From Umbribacter vaginalis (GTDB taxonomy: Bacteria > Actinomycetota > Coriobacteriia > Coriobacteriales > Eggerthellaceae): a DNA stretch of 64,000 nucleotides. Position 1 is the stretch's first letter. Each line of letters begins with the position of its first letter. Below the pieces are notes generated by a model. The model was not told where the DNA came from and did no database searches. It saw nothing but the letters and a program-made list of their open reading frames with translations. Below, piece by piece: positions 50,259 to 56,371 of this stretch. The translations under genes and the position numbers were made by a program. The DNA lies in NCBI GenBank assembly GCA_001552935.1, contig KQ959688.1:35390-99389 (forward strand), written 5' to 3'.

Positions 50259-51887
50259 GTGAAACATATTGCGGTAATTGGAGGCGGAGCGGCTGGCTTA
50301 TGTGCAGCTATCAGTGCTGCATTTCAGGCGCGTGCGTGTAACATACCTGTTCAAATACATGTTTTTGAAGCTCACGCCAAACTAGGGCATAGTATTTTAG
50401 CAACAGGGAACGGACGTTGCAATATTTCGCATGAGGCATTTTTGTCGTCTGATGAACAGCAAGCTTTGCATGCGTGTACAGGAGCTGCTCCGTGGGATCT
50501 TGGCTCGTGCATGTCATCGATGGGCGCAAATAATATCTGTGAACAGGAAAAATACACAGAACAAGCGACACAAGCACTACCGTACCTTCAAGAATCACAG
50601 CTTGCACAGCATCCACACAACGCATGTGCTACGCAAACCATACACGATGTGCAGGGCGCATCAATTACATGCGGTGTACGTGATCAACACACTGCGTACA
50701 ACCCACAAGCTGCGCACAACCCACAAGCTGCACACAATTCGCAGGCTGCGTACACATCTGTTCTTTCAGGATTCCCTTGTGATAGCAACAATCCATTGCA
50801 TCATTTTCATAATAGTGCTTTCGTAAAAACAGCACTTGAGCGCTTGCAACAAGCGGCATTGCATGGTGAAATTGCCTGTATTCCGCATGCGCATGCGAAC
50901 TCATATGATGCTGCACTATCATTTTTCTCGCATCTTGGACTGGTGTTTCGCTGTGATGATCAAGGTTGGTTGTTTCCGTATAGCAATACTGCAAAAACAG
51001 TACGTGAACTGCTTATTGAGACAGCACAGCGCTTGGGCATCGTTATGCACGCGTCAACGGAAGTGAGTGAGCTTGTGGCGTCGAGCTCTGTACTATCAGA
51101 CGCTACATCATTTACTATTACCACGTCAGAGGGAAAAAAGTATCCCGCTGATGCCGTTATTGCAGCGTGGGGAGGAAAGCACAGCCACACATCGCTTGCT
51201 CTGCTTGGTCACAGCGTTAAAACAGTGCCCTGCGTTCCTGTTCTTGGCTCGCTTATCTGCACGTATCCCAATCTTAAAAAGCTTGACACCATACGTTTAC
51301 GCGCACAGGTGCACATTGTGCGCACACAGAACAATACCTCGCGCATTATAGCTTCTGAACAGGGAGAAGTACTGTTTCGTTCCTATGGCGTATCGGGTAT
51401 CGCGGTGTTTAACGTGTCGAGGTTTGTGCATGCGGGCGACGTTGTAAGTATTAATGCGCTGAACATGCCAATCTCTGAGGCAACAGAATTTCTTAAACAT
51501 AAGCTTGAACAGGTAAAAATCCTTAACACAAAAGCCTGTTGGAACGATGTGTTGTATGGCATGTTTCCTGCTGCTTTTGTGGATGTGCTCTGTGCTCAGG
51601 AAATTTCCAACAATGCGTCACCTGCGTGTGTGGCGCGTGCCTTGTGTGATATGCGGCTGCCTATCGAAAGTGTTAAAGCAGATCAGTGCCTTGTTATGCG
51701 CGGTGGAATTGCCATAAACGAGGTCGATGCGCAAACGTTGCGCGTGTCGAACAGCTCTGCTTTGTATGCGGTGGGCGAAGCACTTGATGTTGATGCAAGT
51801 TGTGGTGGTTTTAATTTACATTGGGCTTGGTCAAGTGGTATATTAGCAGGTGCTTGCGCAGTAAATACGTGGCGCGATGCTTCGTAA
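50259..51887 (+). CDS. HI0933/BaiN-type FAD-dependent oxidoreductase with a repetitive insert
   Basis: A 542-residue flavoprotein. The dinucleotide motif IAVIGGGAAGLCAAI and ATGNGRCNISH are at the N-terminus; the closing GEALDVDASCGGFNLHWAWS is typical of the HI0933 (BaiN-like) family, whose activities are mostly unknown. Relatives are about 400 residues. The extra length lies between residues 62 and 183, in a stretch without family similarity that includes three 18-bp repeats coding for AYNPQAAHNPQAAHNSQAAY. The rest of the fold is intact. ATG is replaced by GTG at 50259 after AAGGAGTGTTTC. The next gene follows after 11 bases. Confidence 0.87.
   Translation: MKHIAVIGGGAAGLCAAISAAFQARACNIPVQIHVFEAHAKLGHSILATGNGRCNISHEAFLSSDEQQALHACTGAAPWDLGSCMSSMGANNICEQEKYTEQATQALPYLQESQLAQHPHNACATQTIHDVQGASITCGVRDQHTAYNPQAAHNPQAAHNSQAAYTSVLSGFPCDSNNPLHHFHNSAFVKTALERLQQAALHGEIACIPHAHANSYDAALSFFSHLGLVFRCDDQGWLFPYSNTAKTVRELLIETAQRLGIVMHASTEVSELVASSSVLSDATSFTITTSEGKKYPADAVIAAWGGKHSHTSLALLGHSVKTVPCVPVLGSLICTYPNLKKLDTIRLRAQVHIVRTQNNTSRIIASEQGEVLFRSYGVSGIAVFNVSRFVHAGDVVSINALNMPISEATEFLKHKLEQVKILNTKACWNDVLYGMFPAAFVDVLCAQEISNNASPACVARALCDMRLPIESVKADQCLVMRGGIAINEVDAQTLRVSNSSALYAVGEALDVDASCGGFNLHWAWSSGILAGACAVNTWRDAS
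50694..50747 (+). repeat. In-frame 18-bp tandem repeat in the HI0933-type gene
   Basis: Three adjacent units: GCGTACAACCCACAAGCT, GCGCACAACCCACAAGCT and GCACACAATTCGCAGGCT, coding A-Y/H-N-P/S-Q-A. A fourth partial copy follows. Confidence 0.9.
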
Positions 51888-51898
51888 GGAACAAACAT

Positions 51899-54727
51899 AT
51901 GATAGAACTTGTTCAACTTCGTTTAACACCTGCTCAATGTGGGTATGTTCCACATCAGAATACATCGTGCTGCGATGCATCCACAACAGCTTGCAGCAGT
52001 GCATCCAAGGAACAGCGCTGCGATGCGTCTAAAACTTCTTACGACTGTTCGCGTGGATTATCGCAAAGCCATACTCACGAGAGATCAGGCTCTGTAGGAT
52101 ATTCTACAGCCTCAACGGGGAGTGTGTCTCCTTTTAAGCCTGTTGAGTTTCCTAAGCTTACAAGCGCTGTTGCGCGTGCATTAAACATTTCTGAATCGTT
52201 GCTGAATCATGTTCGTATAACACGATGCAGCATTGATGCGCGTAAGAAATCAACACCTCAATTTGTGTTTTCGTGCGTGCTTGCACTTCCTGCCGATATT
52301 GAAGAAAAATTGCTTTCTCAAAAGCGGTTTCATCACAATGTTACGGTGCGTGAGTATAATCCTGTTCTGCCGCTGTGCATTCATGAGCGTTATTCGATGC
52401 ATGCAGGCTTGCTTTATGCCACATCTGAACAGTACAAACAGTCAGCACATCAACACACCTACCACGCTGACCAGAATGAACAGCTACTAACTCATCACGA
52501 ACAGCCGCCAACCCAGCACGAACAACTTTCAAACCAGCTTGAACAGCCGCCAACCCAGCTTGAACAGCCTTCCAACCAGCATTCTGATAAACATATTCGG
52601 ATCGCCGACCGCAAACGCATTGTGGTGGTAGGCCTTGGACCTGCTGGTTTGTTTGCTGCACTCTACCTTGCGCAGGCAGGCTTGCAGCCTTTGGTGCTTG
52701 AGCGCGGTGCTGGTATCGACGAGCGCGTGCGTATTGTACAAGCGTTTCGCAACGGCGCTGTTTTAAATGAGCTTACTAATATTCAGTTTGGTGCTGGTGG
52801 TGCTGGTACGTTCTCCGATGGAAAGCTATCTACAGGCACGAAAAGCCCGTTCATCAAGCATGTATTGCGATGGCTTGTGAACGCTGGTGCACCCGAGGAA
52901 ATTTTGTGGCGCGCAAAGCCGCATATTGGCACCGATTTGTTGGTGCACGTAGTCAAAAACCTTACGCGCATGCTTGAAAATTGGGGAGCTGACGTGCGTT
53001 TTAATACGCAGCTTGTAGAGTGGAGTTTAAGCGATAACCGCATCGATACTGCTACGTTTATGGACGTTCACACCAAGCAGCTTACGACATGCAAAACTGA
53101 AGCATGTATTTTTGCGCCGGGCAATTCGGCACGTGATACCTTTGAAATGGCGTTTCGTTCGGGCATCTCGATGCAAGCAAAGCCGCTTGCAGTGGGTGTG
53201 CGCATCGAGCATCCTCAGCAGCTTATCAATAATGCCCAGTTTACGACCGCACATTCACATGATTTTGGTGCAGCTGATTATAAATTGGCGTGTGCGTGTT
53301 CGCAGGGTCGCAACGTGTATACCTTTTGTATGTGTCCTGGTGGAGAAGTGGTATGTGCGTCAAGCGAAGCGAATCATCTGGCGGTGAACGGCATGAGTGA
53401 ATTTGCACGTGATACTCCATTTGCAAATAGCGCATTGCTGGTGAATGTTCGTCCACGTGATTTTGCTGATGGTCTAGCCAATTCTGATGAGTGTGTTCAT
53501 CCACTTGCAGGTGTGGCGTTTCAGCGCGCCCTTGAGAAAAAAGCCTTTGATTGTGCACTTCAAGCGGGCGGCACGCCGTATCAAGCGCCTGCGCAAACCG
53601 TGGGCGATTTTCTTGATAATTGCGTCAAGCACACGCATTTAACCACGTCATACGCACGCGGTGTGGTGGCGTGCAATATGCGAGACGTGCTCCCCACTTT
53701 TGTGAGTGACGCGTTGGAGGAAGGTCTGACGCGCCTTGCACAGCGGTTTTCACCTTTTGCGGATCGTGATGCTGTGCTCATTGCGCCAGAAACGCGGTCA
53801 TCGAGCCCTATTCATATTGACCGTAGTACTTTTTATCAGGCATATTATAAGCATTCGAGCGTTTCAACAGGTATTTATCCTTGTGGGGAAGGCGCGGGTT
53901 ATGCAGGTGGCATTATGAGCGCTGCAGTGGACGGCTTGCGCGTAGCTCAGCAGCTTGCTGATACGTATTACCACATCGCGCCTGCAATCGATCCTCAGAC
54001 ATCATCTGTTACACCTGCAATCAATCCTCAAGCGTCATTCGCTGCGCCTGCAGTTAATACTCCAGCATCACCAGATGCGCCGCATTCCACGGCACATCAC
54101 GAAAGCGATGCACTTCAACACTGTTCCACCTGGGTACAGGGCATAGATGTCCTGCGTGCAGGTAAGCCAGCTATTTTCCCTACCGATACCGTTTGTGGCC
54201 TGGGCGTTTCTGTATTGCACGCCTCTTCACCTTCTATTTTATATACGTTAAAACACCGTCCTGCTACTAAACCTATCGCGTGGCTGGTGGGTTCATATAC
54301 CGATGTATATCGTTACGGAACATGTTTACCTCCGTGGATTGACGCCGTTATTAAGACGTTTTGGCCTGGGGCGCTTACGCTTATCGTGAAAGCATCTCCG
54401 CAGGTGCCGCGTGCGTACGTGTCGCCACAGGGAAGCATAGCGCTTCGTATGCCTGCTTCATTTGACGTGCTTGATCTTATCCATGAACTGGGAAGTCCGT
54501 TGTGCACAACCTCGGCAAATATGTCGAGTGAACATGATGTTGCCAGCTTGGCTGACATCGATGAGCATTTACGACATAATGTGTCTGCTATAATGGGGAC
54601 ATCTGCACTGCACGGATCAGGGCTTGCATCAAGTGTCATTGATTGTACACAGTCGCAGTTACGTTGTTTGCGTGAAGGCAGTATTTCGCTGGCAGATATT
54701 CAGCGGATTATCGATGCCGAGCAGTGA
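51899..54727 (+). CDS. Fusion of a COG2509-type FAD dehydrogenase with a Sua5/YrdC-type domain
   Basis: A 942-residue protein in one uninterrupted frame. Residues about 1-185 hold the small N-terminal domain (LTSAVARALNISESLLNHVR, then RCSIDARK) of the family. Five 21-bp repeats encode a linker of EQPPTQH heptads near residues 194-228. The FAD domain follows: VVVGLGPAGLFAALYLAQAG, FGAGGAGTFSDGKLSTGTKS, PCGEGAGYAGGIMSAAVDGL. Another linker (three 33-bp repeats, PAINPQASFAA type) leads to a C-terminal Sua5/YciO/YrdC domain: FPTDTVCGLGVSV, LKHRPATKPIAWLVG, FWPGALTLIVKA, SIALRMPASFD, CTTSANMSSE. That domain in TsaC makes threonylcarbamoyl-AMP for tRNA t6A. The fusion is unusual. ATG 51899 follows GTAAGGA. 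Confidence 0.88.
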   Translation: MIELVQLRLTPAQCGYVPHQNTSCCDASTTACSSASKEQRCDASKTSYDCSRGLSQSHTHERSGSVGYSTASTGSVSPFKPVEFPKLTSAVARALNISESLLNHVRITRCSIDARKKSTPQFVFSCVLALPADIEEKLLSQKRFHHNVTVREYNPVLPLCIHERYSMHAGLLYATSEQYKQSAHQHTYHADQNEQLLTHHEQPPTQHEQLSNQLEQPPTQLEQPSNQHSDKHIRIADRKRIVVVGLGPAGLFAALYLAQAGLQPLVLERGAGIDERVRIVQAFRNGAVLNELTNIQFGAGGAGTFSDGKLSTGTKSPFIKHVLRWLVNAGAPEEILWRAKPHIGTDLLVHVVKNLTRMLENWGADVRFNTQLVEWSLSDNRIDTATFMDVHTKQLTTCKTEACIFAPGNSARDTFEMAFRSGISMQAKPLAVGVRIEHPQQLINNAQFTTAHSHDFGAADYKLACACSQGRNVYTFCMCPGGEVVCASSEANHLAVNGMSEFARDTPFANSALLVNVRPRDFADGLANSDECVHPLAGVAFQRALEKKAFDCALQAGGTPYQAPAQTVGDFLDNCVKHTHLTTSYARGVVACNMRDVLPTFVSDALEEGLTRLAQRFSPFADRDAVLIAPETRSSSPIHIDRSTFYQAYYKHSSVSTGIYPCGEGAGYAGGIMSAAVDGLRVAQQLADTYYHIAPAIDPQTSSVTPAINPQASFAAPAVNTPASPDAPHSTAHHESDALQHCSTWVQGIDVLRAGKPAIFPTDTVCGLGVSVLHASSPSILYTLKHRPATKPIAWLVGSYTDVYRYGTCLPPWIDAVIKTFWPGALTLIVKASPQVPRAYVSPQGSIALRMPASFDVLDLIHELGSPLCTTSANMSSEHDVASLADIDEHLRHNVSAIMGTSALHGSGLASSVIDCTQSQLRCLREGSISLADIQRIIDAEQ
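52478..52582 (+). repeat. In-frame 21-bp tandem repeat (5 copies) in the FAD-Sua5 fusion gene
   Basis: Five adjacent 21-bp units beginning GAACAG/GAACAA encode EQLLTHH, EQPPTQH, EQLSNQL, EQPPTQL and EQPSNQH. They join the N-terminal domain to the FAD domain. Confidence 0.92.
53981..54079 (+). repeat. In-frame 33-bp tandem repeat (3 copies) in the FAD-Sua5 fusion gene
   Basis: Three 33-bp units starting CCTGCAATC/CCTGCAGTT encode PAIDPQTSSVT, PAINPQASFAA and PAVNTPASPDA. They form the linker just before the Sua5/YrdC domain. Confidence 0.9.
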
Positions 54728-54737
54728 TGTGCACCCG

Positions 54738-54984
54738 GTAACGTTACGTGAAGTGAACGGTGAGAATGCAATTTTATGTAGCGCGAACAGCGATGATGCA
54801 ATTTCGCGTAGCGTGAACGGTGAGATTGTAATTACACGGAGAACTACCTGCGCCAATGCAACACTACGTTGCATCCAGCTGCGCCAGTGTAACGCCACGT
54901 TGCATTACCGGCGACAATGCAACATTACTTGGCACCAGATGACACAATGCAACACCACCTGCCACCAGGTATTACACTACAACA
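54738..54984 (+). repeat. Degenerate 30-bp repeat array between the fusion gene and the hydrolase gene
   Basis: Units at 54753-54782, 54783-54812 and 54813-54842 align well (GTGAACGGTGAGAATGCAAT, GCGAACAGCGATGATGCAAT, GTGAACGGTGAGATTGTAAT); four or five more diverged units with the core AATGCAAC follow. One frame stays open through it but has no ribosome-binding site, so I treat it as spacer. Confidence 0.8.
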
Positions 54985-54994
54985 AGGAGTGCGC

Positions 54995-56371
54995 ATGAAA
55001 TCGTTATCGTTTACTATTCCATCTGCGCGGTTACCTTATCAGCTGCATTGTTTGTTGTGGGTGCCTGATGATCAGGATATTCCACTGACTCTTGCGCGTG
55101 TTCCACAGTCGTATGATGAAGAACACGAGGACGCTACCAGCGTAAACACGTCAGCGCCTGCAAGCGCCAATTATGTTCCCGCATCCAAATCCGCCATGCC
55201 CGCTCAATCCGCCGTGCCCGTACCACCTGCACTCCCTCGCGTTCGTGGCACGATACAGCTCATGCACGGCATGTGCGAGCACCTTGGACGATATTCCCAT
55301 GTAGCGCGCCAATTAACCGCGCAGGGCTATGTTGTTTTTGGCATGGATATGCCTGGTCATGGTAAAAGCGTTCCCGATAATACGGAGCTTGGACATATTC
55401 CGCTTAAAGAAGATGTTGATGGTCTTCTGGCCGATGAACATACACTCTTTACGCTTGTGAACAGCTGTTATGCATCGTCTACGCCGCATTTTTTGCTGGG
55501 GCATTCGCTAGGTAGTTTTCTGGCACGAGCATTTCTCGCGCGCTTTAAGCCTGATGTGAGTGCCGTTGCCCTTACAGGAGCAGGCCAAGTAAGTCCTGTT
55601 CTGCGCATTGTAGGAAGTGCACTTACACGTTTGCTGATAGCGCTGCACAACGAACACTATTGTTCGCGTTTCATAGATGCACTCGGAGCAGGAGCTTATG
55701 CGAAAGCGTTTCAACCCGCGCGCACGCCTTTCGACTGGTTATCGCGAAATCCGCAGGTTGTCGATGCCTATCTGCACGATCCGTTATGTGGAGCGCCTTT
55801 TAGCGTTTCATCCTATTTGGTAACAAGTCATGTGTTGCGCGCGATTGCTACTGAAACGCCGCGTATTTTTTCTAAACAGCACGATTGTCAGGCATTACAG
55901 ACGTCACAAGCCGCAGAATCACCACAGACCGCAGAATCACCACAGACCGCTGGATCGACACACGCTTTTAGCACGTCACAAACCCCACATCCACACATTC
56001 GGCGTGAAGAAACCTGTACTATTACGTCATTTACGTGCGCGTCCGCACCCTCATCTGATACCTTTGCTCACGTTGCAATTTTGTTTTGCTCAGGTATCGA
56101 CGATGTGGTTGGTAATCGTGGAAAAGGGGTTATGCAAGCTGCGAAGTCGCTGGTCAAAGCAGGATTTTCACGCGTGACGGTTCGCTTATACGATAACGCG
56201 CGCCATGAAGTGCTCAACGAAGATTGCGCGCCCGACGTTGTTAGCGCCATCGTTGCATGGTTTGACGACGCTGCACTCCACGTTCCCGCAGGTCAACCGC
56301 CTGCGCAACCAAGCAGCACGCACGAAACAATTGCGGCCCCACCATCCGTTCCCCCACGTCAGAAGGCATAA
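54995..56371 (+). CDS. Lysophospholipase/monoacylglycerol-lipase-like alpha/beta hydrolase
   Basis: A 458-residue hydrolase of the serine-aminopeptidase/lysophospholipase type (Hydrolase_4). Key parts: HGMCEHLGRYSHVARQLTAQ (oxyanion side and family signature), GMDMPGHGKS, nucleophile in LLGHSLGSFLARAF, Asp in CSGIDDVVGNRGKG and His in YDNARHEVLNE. Relatives have about 300 residues; the surplus sits in two low-complexity stretches, near residues 35-80 and about 290-345, the latter with 18-bp repeats. ATG 54995 follows AAGGAGTGCGC. glpK begins one base after the stop, so the released glycerol could be phosphorylated at once. Confidence 0.88.
   Translation: MKSLSFTIPSARLPYQLHCLLWVPDDQDIPLTLARVPQSYDEEHEDATSVNTSAPASANYVPASKSAMPAQSAVPVPPALPRVRGTIQLMHGMCEHLGRYSHVARQLTAQGYVVFGMDMPGHGKSVPDNTELGHIPLKEDVDGLLADEHTLFTLVNSCYASSTPHFLLGHSLGSFLARAFLARFKPDVSAVALTGAGQVSPVLRIVGSALTRLLIALHNEHYCSRFIDALGAGAYAKAFQPARTPFDWLSRNPQVVDAYLHDPLCGAPFSVSSYLVTSHVLRAIATETPRIFSKQHDCQALQTSQAAESPQTAESPQTAGSTHAFSTSQTPHPHIRREETCTITSFTCASAPSSDTFAHVAILFCSGIDDVVGNRGKGVMQAAKSLVKAGFSRVTVRLYDNARHEVLNEDCAPDVVSAIVAWFDDAALHVPAGQPPAQPSSTHETIAAPPSVPPRQKA
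55907..55960 (+). repeat. In-frame 18-bp tandem repeat in the hydrolase gene
   Basis: Three adjacent units CAAGCCGCAGAATCACCA, CAGACCGCAGAATCACCA and CAGACCGCTGGATCGACA, encoding QAAESP, QTAESP and QTAGST, in the insert before the last part of the hydrolase fold. Confidence 0.9.

Follow-up and report, generated by a model that had tools for sequence, protein, structure and literature searches.

Fusion of a flavoprotein with the tRNA-modification enzyme TsaC raises three questions: whether the two really form one protein, whether the organism has any other TsaC, and whether the joining tells us what the flavoprotein does. We address them here for a gene in a 64,000-nucleotide stretch of DNA (the window). 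An earlier note had described this gene as a continuous frame with intact motifs in both parts, had suggested that it may encode the organism's only TsaC, and had read the fusion as a possible pointer to a link between the flavoprotein and tRNA modification.

One open frame encodes a flavoprotein and a TsaC domain

The fusion of a COG2509-type flavoprotein and TsaC at positions 51899-54727 is confirmed. As the note had claimed, the frame is continuous in the assembled sequence, running for 942 codons without a stop. It starts at an ATG (51899) preceded by an AAGGA-like stretch, and 189 nt separate its end from the open reading frame of an alpha/beta hydrolase. The parts of the gene and its neighbors are as follows.

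50259..51887, forward strand: upstream neighbor, HI0933-like flavoprotein, with its stop 11 nt ahead of the fused-gene ATG
51899..54727, forward strand: fused gene, 942 aa, COG2509-type flavoprotein plus TsaC (YrdC) domain; single open frame, PF21688 and PF01300 above cut-off
51899..52423, forward strand: N-terminal domain of the flavoprotein, aa 1-175 (alignment, AlphaFold pLDDT)
52424..52606, forward strand: repeat-rich spacer within the flavoprotein, 21/42-bp repeats at 52471-52581 (pLDDT below 50 at 168-234)
52607..53974, forward strand: FAD-binding body, aa 237-692, with GLGPAG at aa 245 and containing PF21688 at aa 429-634 (Pfam; match to 3nlc)
53978..54115, forward strand: interdomain linker, aa 694-739, predicted disordered, with a 33-bp in-frame repeat (AlphaFold, repeat and codon reading)
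54119..54718, forward strand: TsaC domain, aa 741-940, with catalytic residues T762, K785, R787, S872, N874, S911 and R925 (Pfam, alignment, structure superposition)
54917..56371, forward strand: downstream neighbor, alpha/beta hydrolase (Hydrolase_4), the fusion partner of TsaC in three congeners

Both parts score well above their Pfam cut-offs. PF21688 (FAD-dependent protein, C-terminal) matches at 226.7 bits against a cut-off of 27 (E 3.9e-67), and PF01300 (Sua5/YrdC) matches aa 751-927 at 125.7 bits against a curated cut-off of 25.1 (E 1.8e-36). We follow the note in taking the N-terminal module to be of COG2509 type; it has the PF21688 domain and an FAD-binding GxGxxG body. Sequence comparison with solved structures identifies the first part of the protein with VP0956 (3nlc, E 4.8e-103) and the second with Sua5/TsaC enzymes.

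The AlphaFold model of the fused protein, built with 61 window and locus proteins, has a mean pLDDT of 78.9 and a pTM of 0.70. It comprises two confident modules that are separated by a break at residues 694-739, the linker, which together with residues 19-76 and 168-234 makes up the three stretches with pLDDT below 50. The first of these stretches corresponds to a low-complexity insert (around aa 18-75) in the N-terminal domain that is absent from nine aligned fused relatives. In a structure search with the whole model as query, 523 residues of the N-terminal module superpose on 3nlc (Z 47.3, rmsd 2.3), and 198-199 residues of the C-terminal module superpose on Sua5 catalytic domains (Z ~25-27). 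The VP0956-type FAD protein thus matches the whole N-terminal module, to which the window protein adds the TsaC domain and the repeat-rich inserts. We found no function for the COG2509/VP0956 family in the literature searched.

The C-terminal module is a TsaC with a full set of catalytic residues

Excerpts of PMC10321239 give the catalytic residues of Sua5/TsaC enzymes as T33, K56, R58, S143, N145, S181 and R195 in Pa-Sua5 numbering. All seven are kept in the window domain at the positions listed above, in agreement with the note's description of intact motifs and leaving no sign of the residue loss that it had named as evidence against the proposal. The set is likewise complete in 11/11 fused proteins and in all 38 readable separate TsaC domains of the family (40 were aligned, those of G010 and G119 being truncated). 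Judged by its sequence, the domain appears to be catalytically competent.

The best structural matches of the domain are Sua5/TsaC2 enzymes (6f89, Z 27.0, rmsd 2.1, 199 residues), with E. coli YrdC (1hru) at Z 19.4 and rmsd 2.6 over 176 residues. Sua5 identity was nevertheless rejected. The SUA5 domain is absent and there is no room for it, the protein terminating 15 residues past the PF01300 match. The Sua5-specific residues N62, H67 and the glutamate of GVE (E180) are replaced by K791, L796 and A910, and the KPSPT feature is not kept either. Since, in addition, the TsaC-specific Thr138 (E. coli numbering) is retained as T871, we assign the domain to TsaC (L-threonylcarbamoyladenylate synthase), with which it shares the catalytic residues, the signature threonine and the lack of a SUA5 domain. 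It differs from known TsaC in lying C-terminal to a flavoprotein and in scoring 121.6 bits with the NCBIfam equivalog TIGR00057, 1.6 bits short of the 123.2-bit cut-off. YciO, according to excerpts of PMC12506659, has a conserved basic surface patch and no TsaC function in vivo. Identification of the fused protein as HypF was also rejected, the acylphosphatase, zinc-finger and Kae1-like parts being missing among its Pfam matches and a separate HypF being present.

TsaC-like domains inside larger proteins are already known from HypF, TobZ, Sua5 and TsaN. The partners named for HypF, TobZ and TsaN (8ide) in the excerpts of PMC10321239 and PMC9654439 are Kae1/TsaD-type, SUA5 or TcdA domains, whereas the partner in the window is a flavoprotein. 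No published description of the COG2509-TsaC pair was found in the literature searched.

No TsaC besides the fused gene was found in the genome

The genome that contains the window is a 1.70 Mb draft of 50 contigs with a completeness of 92%. A profile search of it with PF01300 returned two matches, the fused gene and HypF. The second was considered as a further TsaC and rejected as belonging to HypF, and no second TsaC was found in this 92%-complete genome. The suggestion that the fused gene is the organism's only TsaC is therefore upheld in the sense that it is the sole one found at this completeness. TsaD, TsaB and TsaE are also present, so that the known bacterial t6A enzymes are complete. 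One 914-codon frame outside the window (G000:C47, ~185.5-188.4 kb, L275) is itself a fusion, joining TsaB and TsaD through an intervening RimI-type acetyltransferase, and TsaE lies directly upstream of it. In three congeners both TsaD-family matches share one open frame of 843-923 codons.

Across the 11 genomes found to carry the COG2509-TsaC fusion there are 21 PF01300 matches: one for each fusion and ten others, with one extra in each of 10 genomes. The extra match is HypF at all seven loci aligned, the window organism's included; the other three are in G125, G050 and G049.

The fusion recurs within the Eggerthellaceae

The note had proposed looking for the same fusion in Coriobacteriia, and ten further genomes, from six additional genera of the family, indeed carry it. 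Our family sample comprised 138 genomes, of which 123 have a PF21688 match and 117 were counted for a COG2509 locus, five being excluded for weak matches only (G032, G060, G066, G110, G123) and one for a fragment (G118). An in-frame COG2509-TsaC fusion is present in 11/117 genomes and 7/43 genera (the window genome, G013, G014, G015, G046, G047, G049, G050, G073, G074 and G125). In a further 30/117 tsaC is unfused and at most 250 nt downstream of the COG2509 gene, its match beginning ahead of the flavoprotein stop in three of these. In 10/117 it is further downstream, within ~2.2 kb, and in 3/117 it is on the opposite strand. The remaining 63/117 have no tsaC in the stretch examined at the COG2509 locus, which in 14 of them reaches less than 2.5 kb downstream. 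G113 and G019 have fusion-like scores but stop codons between the domains, and were rejected as fused and counted as separate.

Among named COG2509 loci, 3/80 have tsaC nearby: Curtanaerobium respiraculi (L095), in which the genes are fused, an Adlercreutzia sp. (L097), in which they overlap without being fused, and L092. Curtanaerobium, like Slackia piriformis, is a member of the Eggerthellaceae. In other families of the order, tsaC was near COG2509 at 0/20 loci of 3.6-9 kb each. No match spanning both domains was found outside the family among the matches listed for 297 genomes of the order and 396 of the phylum, samples that both contain family members. Fused genes outside the family would be expected to top these listings because the scores of fused proteins exceed 1030 bits, whereas those of unfused proteins reach ~897 at most. 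We therefore reject the idea that the fusion characterizes the whole family or order, given its presence at 11/117 family loci and at none listed outside the family.

The history of the fusion was examined on a COG2509 tree of 116 sequences, G047 being omitted as a fragment. At least six changes between the fused and separate states are required, four of which are forced by well-supported branches. For 40 sequences in which the two genes are fused or close neighbors, a tree that holds the fused ones in one clade is rejected (p-AU 7.4e-29), and with it a single origin of the fusion. The number of residues between two motifs that flank the junction also varies between groups (87 in the window, 34 in g18 and g30, 41 in g3 and 46-56 in the other three groups), as fits separate joinings. 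An ancestral fusion with repeated splits may also be compatible with the tree, as the change counts are blind to gain versus loss. The window COG2509 sequence forms a long branch apart from its three genus mates, with unsure placement, and may be either fast-evolving or of different origin.

Merging of adjacent genes is the most probable origin

We consider it probable that the protein is bifunctional, that neither its TsaC nor its COG2509 flavoprotein is out of the ordinary, and that the fusions arose as neighboring genes of an operon merged repeatedly; a new tRNA chemistry is the less likely reading. The C-terminal module would be the organism's TsaC and would use threonine, bicarbonate and ATP to make threonylcarbamoyl-AMP. 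From this, TsaD together with TsaB and TsaE would place the threonylcarbamoyl group on A37 of ANN-reading tRNAs, giving the universal modification t6A. The N-terminal module would be an ordinary COG2509/VP0956-type FAD protein acting on its own, tethered by the flexible linker and having only expression, amount and location in common with TsaC. We infer that a gene row HI0933-COG2509-tsaC-hydrolase with short gaps has been retained in part of the family, and that this row would occasionally lose the stop and start signal between two of its members, tsaC merging with its upstream neighbor in some lineages and its downstream neighbor in others.

Other partners of both domains are seen in the family. 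At 5/117 loci (L009, L010, L011, L249 and L051) TsaC carries the alpha/beta hydrolase at its C-terminus. The carriers are all three congeners (L009, L010, L011), in which tsaC and COG2509 lie in different frames, together with G113 and G116, and a possible start codon is present slightly ahead of TsaC in these fusions. In G040 (L201) a frame of 1336 codons joins COG2509 to BspA-type LRR_5 repeats. Large partners at either end are thus tolerated by the universal TsaC, and one gene row can give alternative fusions in sister lineages, which makes fusion alone a poor guide to function here.

The strongest competitor to merging is functional coupling, in which the FAD module would gate, feed or localize TC-AMP synthesis, for example by redox sensing, and selection would have driven the repeated fusions. 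The same pair has been fused in 11 genomes of seven genera, with at least four changes forced by well-supported branches, and by the 'Rosetta stone' argument such repeated, independent fusion hints that the two modules are functionally tied. The genes are also closely adjacent in part of the family, and in 7/11 fused genes only 34-41 residues separate the flanking motifs, so that the last flavoprotein helix nearly abuts the TsaC domain. Against this, tsaC is joined to an unrelated hydrolase and COG2509 to LRR repeats, adjacency at the loci examined is limited to family members, and the window linker is long and predicted to be disordered. The two domains also occur apart: in 14 control genomes PF01300 is present in 14/14 and PF21688 in 7/14, E. 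coli and B. subtilis having no PF21688 match although PF01300 matches both, and in the family PF21688 has no match in G025, G041, G080, G086 and G131 (completeness 92-99%), where PF01300 is present. We judge coupling unlikely on this balance. The earlier note's link between flavoprotein and tRNA modification is kept possible by the recurrence of the pair, which argues for it weakly in view of the other fusions and the PF01300-only genomes, and we regard such a tie as an outside possibility.

A specific form of coupling, which we hold to be decidedly unlikely, is that Eggerthellaceae COG2509 is an auxiliary t6A factor whose redox state or substrate would control the TC-AMP output of the tethered TsaC, this being the reason for the repeated fusion. 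Were that so, anaerobic redox metabolism would be tied to the fidelity of translation. If the COG2509 module touches t6A synthesis at all, the tethered protein would make an orphan flavoprotein family directly testable.

The linker is in frame and lacks a start codon

The linker contains 3.2 copies of a 33-bp repeat (53978-54081), the period of which is a multiple of three and so keeps the frame. From residue 680, which still belongs to the flavoprotein, up to the TsaC motif at 760, and hence throughout the linker, no further ATG, GTG or TTG occurs in frame. Only the fusion frame is open across the linker, stops closing the other two forward frames; a stop at the junction, which the note had set as a sign against the fusion, is absent from the assembled frame. 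The in-frame repeat period and the missing start codon agree with a real, translated linker.

These features bear on the idea that the product is split, either by a protease that would cut the disordered linker or by translation restarting within the flavoprotein, giving two ordinary proteins. The predicted disorder of residues 694-739 would suit the former and the start-like codons near the flavoprotein end (ATG 673, GTG 677, TTG 680) the latter. Yet a restart at 673-680 would leave TsaC with a tail of ~80 residues, and no start codon follows before the motif at 760. Since the linker is predicted to be disordered and consists of an in-frame 33-bp repeat without an ATG, GTG or TTG start, TsaC could hardly be made alone, and we find a split product improbable. 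An assembly or sequencing error uniting two separate genes, for which the 50-contig draft and the different frames of the two genes in three congeners might speak, is highly improbable given the shared 942-codon frame, the in-frame repeat without a start codon and the same fusion in ten other genomes from six other genera.

Short repeat arrays occur in several genes of the region (50692-50737, 52471-52581, 53978-54081 and 55911-55962), with periods of 18, 21/42 or 33 bp, each a multiple of three. A 30-bp array at 54848-54955 is mostly intergenic.
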